Positions 30,212 through 32,343 of a DNA stretch of 64,000 nucleotides are shown piece after piece. The notes below the pieces were generated by a model. The model had not been told where the DNA came from and did not search any database. It saw only the letters and a program-made list of their open reading frames with translations. Each line of letters opens with the position of its first letter. Positions within the stretch are counted from its first letter, which is position 1. The stretch is from Candidatus Flavonifractor intestinigallinarum (lineage in GTDB: Bacteria > Bacillota > Clostridia > Oscillospirales > Oscillospiraceae). Made by a program: the position numbers and the translations under genes. The stretch spans positions 1 to 64,000 of the forward strand of contig DWXO01000047.1 of NCBI GenBank assembly GCA_019119165.1, given 5' to 3'.

Positions 30212-31462
30212 TTAACGGAGCAGTGTCTGGTACTCCTCCGCCTTGCCCACACGGCCCACGGCGGACAGGGAGGAATTGGACAAATCCATCAGCTCCTCCG
30301 CCAGCGCGCGCACATCCTCCCGGGTGACGGCGTCGTAGGCGGCGATGATCTCCTCCTCGTCCAGCACCTTTCCCACCAGCATCTCTCCCCGGCCCAGGCT
30401 GCTCATATGGGCCTGGGTGGATTCCAGCCCCATCAGCACGTTGGCCTTGGACTGCTCTCTGGCCCGGTCCAGCTCCTCCTGGGTGACGCCGTGGTCGTTG
30501 AAGTCCCGGATAACCGACAGAATGGTGTCCAGGGCCTGGCGTTCGGTCTCCTTGCCCAGGGCGGTGTAGATGCCGAAGTAGCCCGCGTCGTCGTGGCAGG
30601 TGCCGTAGGAATAGATGGAGTAGCACAGCCCCTTCCGCTCCCGCACCTGCTGGAACAGACGGGAGGACATCCCGCCGCCCAGAATGGAGGAGAGCAGCTG
30701 GAGGGTGAACCGCCGGGGATCGGAGAAGGACAGCCCCGGAAAGGCCAGGGTCAGATGGTTCTGCTCAATGGCCTTTTTCTTGACCACAATGCCGCTGCGG
30801 TAGGCGGCGGGCTTGCTGGCAATGGGTTTGCGGGGCTCCAGCACAGCAAACCGGGCGGCCAGATCGTCCACGTCGGCCTGGGTAAACCGGCCTGCCAGGG
30901 CCACCACAATGGACTCAGGGCCGTAATGGCTGTCCTTGTACTGCCGCAGCCAGGCCCCGTCCATCTTCTCCAGGGTGGATTTCTTGCCCAAAATGGGCCG
31001 TGCCAGAGGGGAGCCCTGAAAGACCACCCCGGCCAGCCGTTCGGCGCACAGGTCCTCGGGGTTGTCCTCGTACATTCCGATTTCCTCTAAAATGACCCCC
31101 CGCTCGGTCTCCACGTCGCCGTCGTCAAATTTGGAGTGGAAGAACATATCGCACAGGATGTCGGTGGCCATGGGCAGATGGGTGTCCAGCACCCGGGCGT
31201 GGAAGCAGGTACACTCCTTGGTGGTAAAGGCGTTGACCTGTCCGCCGATGGCGTCCATCTCCTCCGCCAGCTGGGCGGCGGTGCGGGTGGCAGTGCCCTT
31301 GAAGAGCATATGCTCGATGAAGTGGGCGGCGCCCCCCTCCCCCGGCTTTTCGTGGCGGGAGCCGGTGCCCACCCAGATGCCCAGGCAGGCCGAGCGCACG
31401 CCGGGCACCTGCTCGGTGAGAATACGCACCCCGTTGGGGAGCGTCCGTTTTTCATAGTTCAA
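30212..31462 (-). CDS. M16-family zinc metallopeptidase (processing-peptidase-like)
   Basis: About 416 aa. The inverted zinc motif HFIEH with downstream ERGVILEEIGMYEDNPED is complete, and the second half (RFTLQLLSSILGGGMSSRLFQQVRERKGLCYSIYS) carries the Arg/Tyr substrate-binding pair of M16B proteins. It resembles Bacillus MlpA/YmxG and acts on peptides in the cytosol. The start is taken as TTG 31462 because GTGAGG lies 9 nt upstream; ATG 31483 in the same frame has no clear ribosome-binding site. A 27-aa membrane peptide is encoded just upstream in the same transcript. Confidence 0.88.
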   Translation of the reverse strand: MNYEKRTLPNGVRILTEQVPGVRSACLGIWVGTGSRHEKPGEGGAAHFIEHMLFKGTATRTAAQLAEEMDAIGGQVNAFTTKECTCFHARVLDTHLPMATDILCDMFFHSKFDDGDVETERGVILEEIGMYEDNPEDLCAERLAGVVFQGSPLARPILGKKSTLEKMDGAWLRQYKDSHYGPESIVVALAGRFTQADVDDLAARFAVLEPRKPIASKPAAYRSGIVVKKKAIEQNHLTLAFPGLSFSDPRRFTLQLLSSILGGGMSSRLFQQVRERKGLCYSIYSYGTCHDDAGYFGIYTALGKETERQALDTILSVIRDFNDHGVTQEELDRAREQSKANVLMGLESTQAHMSSLGRGEMLVGKVLDEEEIIAAYDAVTREDVRALAEELMDLSNSSLSAVGRVGKAEEYQTLLR

Positions 31463-31494
31463 ACAAAAGGACCTCACATTCATTTGTGTGGGGA

Positions 31495-31578
31495 TCAACC
31501 CCGGAGGGCGATCAGGAGCAGTACCACCCCGGTGATCGCCAGGACAAGGGTCAGGTATCCGATGACTTTCATTTTCAT
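31495..31578 (-). CDS. 27-aa single-helix membrane peptide upstream of the M16 peptidase
   Basis: A small ORF not in the track: MKMKVIGYLTLVLAITGVVLLLIALRG. A basic start, one hydrophobic helix of about 19 residues and a short basic end fit a small membrane protein. GGAGAGGAGCGG precedes the ATG, and a promoter (CTGACA-17-TATAAT) lies 38 nt further upstream. The stop is 12 nt before the alternative peptidase ATG, so the two would share an mRNA. No family is recognised. Confidence 0.6.
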   Translation of the reverse strand: MKMKVIGYLTLVLAITGVVLLLIALRG

Positions 31579-31615
31579 GCCGTGCCGCTCCTCTCCTCAG
31601 ATTGCCCTGCACGAC

Positions 31616-31644
31616 ATTATATCATACCTGAAATGGCTTGTCAG
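31616..31644 (-). promoter_or_regulatory. Promoter of the small-peptide/M16 peptidase operon
   Basis: Minus strand CTGACA, a 17-nt spacer and TATAAT, followed after 38 nt by the small-peptide start codon. Confidence 0.7.
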
Positions 31645-31772: not shown

Positions 31773-32300
31773 ATGAATCAGGAAGCGCTGAAGGTACTGG
31801 AAGAGCGGCGCAGCTGCCGGGCCTACAAGCCGGAGCAGATCACCGAGGAGGAGCTGCAGGCGGTGCTGAAGGCGGGCACCTACGCCCCCACCGGCATGGG
31901 CAGACAGTCCCCCATCATTGTTGCTGTGCAGGACAAGGAGATCATCGCCGCTTTGAGCAAGCAGAACGCCGCCATTATGGGCAACCCGGACATGGACCCC
32001 TTCTACGGCGCCCCCACCGTGCTCATCGTGCTGGCCGACAAGCAGTTCCCCACCTGGTTCTATGACGGCTGCTGCGTCATGGATAACCTGCTCAACGCCG
32101 CCGAGGCCGTGGGGCTGGGCTCCTGCTGGATCCACCGGGCCAAGGAGGAGTTTGAGTCCGCCGAGGGCAAGGCTCTGCTGGCCAAGTGGGGCATTGAGGG
32201 GGACTACGAGGGCATCGGCCACTGTGTGCTGGGCTACTGGGCCGAGGAGAAGCCCGCCGCCCCCGCCCGCAAGGAGAATTACATCTACTATGTGCGGTAA
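31773..32300 (+). CDS. Nitroreductase-family flavoprotein
   Basis: 175 aa. The N-terminus EVLEERRSCRAYKPEQITEEELQAVLKAGTYAPTGMGRQSP binds FMN (the RRSCRAYK arginines and the AP-G-Q-P loop), and AAEAVGLGSCWIHRA plus the C-terminal VLGYWAEEKPAAPARKENYIYYV complete the fold. It works as an NAD(P)H oxidoreductase of nitro or quinone-like compounds; substrate unknown. GGAAAGGAAG lies before the ATG. A decayed copy of its 3' end with the same terminator is found at 35.35-35.43 kb. Confidence 0.88.
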   Translation: MNQEALKVLEERRSCRAYKPEQITEEELQAVLKAGTYAPTGMGRQSPIIVAVQDKEIIAALSKQNAAIMGNPDMDPFYGAPTVLIVLADKQFPTWFYDGCCVMDNLLNAAEAVGLGSCWIHRAKEEFESAEGKALLAKWGIEGDYEGIGHCVLGYWAEEKPAAPARKENYIYYVR

Positions 32301-32315
32301 GAGCCGTAAATAAGC

Positions 32316-32343
32316 AAAAAGCGCGCCGAAAGGCGCGCTTTTT
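32316..32343 (+). terminator. Nitroreductase terminator
   Basis: AAAAAGCGCGCC-GAAA-GGCGCGCTTTTT. The same terminator sequence is repeated exactly at 35400-35427. Confidence 0.9.

Follow-up and report, generated by a model that had tools for sequence, protein, structure and literature searches.

Several small membrane proteins with a single span have been described in bacteria: E. coli YohP is a 27-aa protein of this kind (PMC7549839), CydX is another that tunes a membrane complex (PMC4325964), and AcrZ acts on AcrB (PMC7267776). In the TorE/NapE family, the gene for a small membrane protein accompanies those of the system whose anchoring and multimerisation the protein assists (PMC6134056). 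The M16B peptidase YmxG, or MlpA, is a further point of reference for the locus considered here. Its role is listed as not available in a 2025 review (PMC12731061), deletion of mlpA/ymxG alone does not impair germination in B. subtilis (PMC13393411), and the papers that we found describe no small protein partner of the YmxG/MlpA peptidase. The catalogue of small proteins in the global microbiome counts over 52 million families that are specific to one genus (PMC11364881).

The locus lies in a window of 64,000 nucleotides, by which we mean the whole stretch of DNA that was analysed, on contig C7 of a 2.3-Mb, 105-contig genome of Flavonifractor, a GTDB genus of gut bacteria. The first-pass annotation had placed a gene for a 27-aa membrane peptide at 31495..31578, and an open reading frame encoding MKMKVIGYLTLVLAITGVVLLLIALRG* is found at exactly these positions on the minus strand; it is, as had been supposed, short enough to fall under gene-calling limits. 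It stands ahead of an M16 peptidase gene and is placed for transcription before it. The features of the locus, all on the minus strand, are as follows.

31639..31644, minus strand: -35 hexamer CTGACA, from a promoter scan; TGACA is kept in most Flavonifractor and in G101
31616..31621, minus strand: -10 hexamer TATAAT with an extended -10 TG (TGATATAAT), from the promoter scan; conserved in most relatives
31588..31598, minus strand: ribosome-binding site GAGGAGAGGAG of the peptide gene, read from the sequence; a purine-rich site is kept in relatives
31495..31578, minus strand: gene for a predicted 27-aa single-helix membrane protein, MKMKVIGYLTLVLAITGVVLLLIALRG*, from its translation, a frame intact in 18/18 testable Flavonifractor, a homologue in G101 and a pN/pS of 0.26
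31463..31494, minus strand: intergenic gap of 32 nt with the M16 ribosome-binding site GTGAGG (~31477-31472), from comparison with relatives
30212..31462, minus strand: gene for an M16B zinc peptidase of the YmxG/BH2405 type, 416 aa from TTG, with the active-site motif HFIEH, from Pfam, a PDB match and start conservation

The neighbouring gene encodes an M16B peptidase without a membrane segment. Both Pfam domains are recognised (PF00675, 2e-39; PF05193, 5.4e-39), the HXXEH motif is present as HFIEH, and the closest solved structure, 3hdi (BH2405 of Bacillus halodurans, of the YmxG/MlpA type), matches over nearly the full length with an E-value of 4.6e-100. Where this gene begins affects the spacing of the pair. 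The peptide had been described as stopping 12 nt before the peptidase, a distance that rested on an in-frame ATG at 31483. This codon occurs in G000, G004 and G015 only and is missing from the close relatives G002, G018, G016 and G005, whose M16 proteins are 89-93% identical, and we therefore rejected it as the start. The TTG at 31462 and the GAGG-type ribosome-binding site ahead of it are retained across Flavonifractor, and G101 and most other genera have an ATG at about the same position. Because the upstream ATG is absent from close relatives and the TTG is kept together with its ribosome-binding site, TTG 31462 is the most likely start, which leaves a gap of 32 nt. Most relatives have a gap of 28-66 nt; that of G017 is 147 nt long, and in G001 peptide and M16 stand 992 nt apart, with a second nitroreductase gene separating them. 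The genes downstream of M16 are on the opposite strand, so the unit ends there; the M16 peptidase operon of the first-pass annotation holds to the extent that it comprises the peptide and M16 genes, and it contains just these two.

Two irregularities in the surroundings of M16 may be recorded. In G017 an inverted-repeat element of ~85 nt (GGGCTTGCTTGAAAATG...CAATTTTCAAACAAGCCC) is inserted between peptide and M16 (L017:1369-1497). G013 (L020) carries a second M16 fragment on contig C102:36532-36843, ~0.7 kb downstream of the full gene and 84% identical over residues 277-385, which is either a partial duplication or an assembly artefact.

The M16 gene is present in 20/20 Flavonifractor genomes examined, and the peptide profile finds one match per genome in 18 of them. 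These 18 are the testable genomes; the others are G011, whose contig ends inside the M16 gene, and G012, whose contig ends ~0.9 kb upstream of M16 and has a nitroreductase gene directly before it. Frameshifts or stops in close relatives would speak against the gene, and none is seen in 18/18. Across the 18 genomes, 10, 8 and 23 of the 26 codons vary at positions 1, 2 and 3 respectively (permutation P ~5e-5, which is indicative only, as the rows are phylogenetically related), and the pN/pS is 0.26. This low ratio and the excess of third-position changes make purifying selection on the amino acids of the peptide clear. The residues K4, G7, Y8, L9, L13, V19, L20 and I23-A24-L25-R26-G27 are invariant. 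An ORF of fewer than 50 aa thus has both a coding signature and a conserved frame, and on these comparisons we regard 31578-31495 (minus strand) as a genuine protein-coding gene, as had been claimed.

The peptide gene is retained in G003 and G001 despite the loss of its promoter, and in G001 it is retained although the nitroreductase gene separates it from M16. The peptide had at one point seemed absent from G001, a reading that we rejected, as it sits before the duplicated nitroreductase gene. The rearrangement itself (L148:235-2176) has left two tandem copies of a ferredoxin-domain nitroreductase gene, one on each side of the peptide, and before M16 only a tail, ...FFALRG*, remains, which looks like the remnant of a second peptide copy.

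The promoter and ribosome-binding site had been called strong and good, and both descriptions agree with what we find. CTGACA-17-TATAAT at 31644-31616 (minus strand) matches 11/12 positions of the sigma-70-type consensus and has an extended -10 TG, and GGAGAGGAG lies 9 nt ahead of the peptide ATG; transcription would start at ~31609. In the surrounding 2.5-kb region there are 2 promoter-like sites vs 0.5 expected from shuffling. G002 has GGACAAG at the -35 position, and the promoter is lost in G001 and G003, where a nitroreductase gene lies directly upstream.

Other signals were noted around the locus. A strong, bidirectional terminator-like hairpin (AAAAAGCGCGCC GAAA GGCGCGCTTTTT) occupies window positions 32316-32343, after a divergent nitroreductase-like gene at 31773-32300. 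A few tens of bases ahead of the M16 ribosome-binding site, several loci (L013-L020, L024, L042) share a CATACTA box, which has decayed in the window. The box also occurs in some genera that lack the peptide; it may be a further promoter element or else a conserved motif that is unrelated.

Profile searches for the peptide covered two overlapping sets, 301 genomes from the family and 394 from the order, and gave a sole accepted match outside the genus, that of G101 (E 4.2e-6). We took another, found in G107 (E 5e-4), as chance; it lies inside a 477-codon frame on a contig other than that of M16. The G101 homologue, VKTVPKILGYLALVLLCAALVLALIALRG, is 29 aa long with a GTG start, and is found 28 nt before the M16 coding block with the same type of promoter. 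In a maximum-likelihood tree of M16 proteins G101 is sister to Flavonifractor (support 93/96). The M16 gene itself is present in 115/301 family genomes (E<=1e-60) and the peptide is confined to the genus and G101, and because M16 is so common in the family without the peptide, M16 function does not need it in general.

The gene order suggests how the peptide arose. In G101 it follows a gene whose C-terminal end matches those of the genes before M16 in other genera, and from the S1-domain end it is our own reading that this gene is pnp. G166, G078, G122, G193, G184 and G108 have the putative pnp followed by M16 with no peptide between, and pnp and M16 are neighbours in Bacillus as well. The peptide was probably gained once, between pnp and M16, before Flavonifractor and its sister lineage diverged; in the simplest history the pnp linkage was lost later in Flavonifractor, after the gain. 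G246 (L044) has a promoter of like form (CTGACA...GTGGTAGAAT) ~130 bases before M16 and no peptide ORF, which is possibly either a loss or a state preceding the gain; given the similarity of this promoter, the G246 lineage may have lost the peptide.

As a protein, the peptide is predicted to be a single hydrophobic helix of membrane-spanning length, the best 19 residues having a mean Kyte-Doolittle hydropathy of 2.7-2.9 in four orthologues. The N-terminus carries a charge of +1 to +3 from lysines and the C-terminus is fixed as IALRG. By the positive-inside rule we would expect an N-in topology. Searches of Pfam, NCBIfam and PHROGs gave no named family above cut-off, the best scores being those of NF040514 (E 0.16) and NprX (E 0.06), both well short of it. 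The PDB profile search gave nothing but a stretch of cytochrome c oxidase that we ascribe to chance (E 5), and we accept no PDB relative of the peptide.

The distribution of changes along the helix is uneven. Within the genus 20/30 parsimony changes fall at residues 6, 10, 14, 18 and 22, and 3 more at residue 3. The helical periodicity has a P of ~0.01-0.03 over residues 3-25 or 5-25 in a small, related data set, and of 0.04-0.09 once the invariant RG is included, the test being weak and partly post hoc. The five variable residues form one helix stripe, which suggests that the peptide lies in the membrane as a helix packed onto a partner, and the helix would have one lipid-facing side and one conserved side that makes contacts.

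The coding signature, conservation, promoter and proximity to M16 are established by these comparisons, and we give about an even chance to the peptide being a single-span small membrane protein that packs against some membrane partner. Its own sigma-70-type promoter would drive its expression, most likely as part of a two-gene mRNA that also carries the housekeeping YmxG-type M16B peptidase, and the peptide would insert into the membrane most likely with the N-terminus in. The conserved helix face and the fixed C-terminal IALRG would then pack side-to-side on a membrane partner, either another protein or copies of the peptide itself, and the packing would stabilise or tune that partner in the manner of AcrZ-, CydX- or TorE-type microproteins. 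Because of the gene order the M16 enzyme is the first candidate for the partner, a choice that the data do not require.

A more specific proposal is that the peptide is a dedicated adaptor, which binds the M16B peptidase and holds it at the membrane. The order of the two genes is almost constant across the genus and G101, and TorE provides a precedent, as it anchors its partner TorC more firmly in the membrane (PMC6134056). The proteome of the B. subtilis inner spore membrane is reported to include MlpA/YmxG as a putative protease associated with membranes, making a membrane-associated M16 plausible (PMC13393411). Against these points, the part of the peptide likely to be cytoplasmic offers just ~5 residues beyond the helix, with residue 3 among the most variable, the majority of M16 genes in the family lack a peptide, and in G001 the two genes are 992 nt apart with another gene between. 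We consider the adaptor doubtful, and we are equally hesitant to call the peptide a lineage-specific membrane subunit of the YmxG-type peptidase.

The short hydrophobic helix with its N-terminal lysines would also fit a membrane-acting peptide, and the product could be a helix like those of type I toxins, or a pheromone precursor trimmed by M16. The M16B pair AlbF/AlbE matures the peptide subtilosin (PMC12731061), and one orthologue has a very weak, non-significant match to the NprX pheromone model (E 0.06). This match is far below cut-off, however, and the constraint extends over the whole helix rather than over a mature C-terminal part alone. A toxin also sits poorly with a near-consensus, constitutive-looking promoter, with the lack of any antitoxin gene seen adjoining the peptide, and with a single copy per genome that is kept vertically. 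We regard a toxin or signal as unlikely.

The first-pass annotation had also raised the regulation of M16 translation, in which case the peptide would be an inert leader or upstream ORF whose translation acts by coupling or attenuation. It is short and just upstream of M16, and the M16 start codon is a weak TTG. However, the purifying selection acts at the amino-acid level over the whole helix, M16 has its own conserved ribosome-binding site, and the gap varies between 28 and 147 nt (992 nt in G001), an arrangement that argues against translational coupling. There is no Rfam family match at the peptide locus and no terminator-like site between the genes, and the RNA around the peptide stop folds no better than when the post-stop bases are shuffled (mean z -0.25, 19 genomes); a conserved alternative RNA structure of the kind expected of an attenuator is thus not seen, the shuffle test covering the stop region only. 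A conserved hairpin at the stop, which had seemed striking by eye (GGGG...CCCC), was rejected on the same shuffles. With no RNA signal, an independent M16 ribosome-binding site and a variable gap, coupling or attenuation is unlikely, and we do not retain the regulatory proposal. Finally, a chance ORF in an untranslated leader has a negligible probability, for although ORFs of at least 20 codons are mechanically abundant (137 in 10.5 kb), this reading is refuted by the frame conservation in 18/18 genomes and the third-position pattern.

The peptide gene is a well-supported addition to those of the genus Flavonifractor. Its gain, which can be located on the tree, together with related loci that do not have the gene, shows the entry of a very short membrane protein into the conserved pnp-M16 locus, followed by purifying selection, and the peptide provides a handle on the M16B peptidase YmxG. 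Should the membrane-subunit reading be true, a housekeeping peptidase would work within a membrane complex in Flavonifractor, and its partner there would be a recent evolutionary addition with an origin that the tree can locate.

The peptide resembles YohP, AcrZ, CydX, KdpF and MgtS in having fewer than 50 aa, essentially one hydrophobic helix and a short charged end; AcrZ and CydX are described as binding and tuning a membrane protein complex (PMC7267776, PMC4325964). We found no sequence relationship to any of the five in Pfam, NCBIfam, PHROGs or the PDB. Unlike them, it is encoded next to a peptidase that lacks a membrane segment rather than next to a membrane enzyme, and its occurrence is limited to a single genus and the sister lineage. 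TorE and NapE belong to proteobacterial respiratory systems and were compared with it through library scans alone. In related genera M16 follows the putative pnp, and most YmxG-type orthologues of the family, unlike those of Flavonifractor, have no peptide gene before them. The peptide is not exceptional as a kind, and its family may already be among the catalogued small-protein families; it is a new, genus-level example of the single-span small membrane proteins already known.
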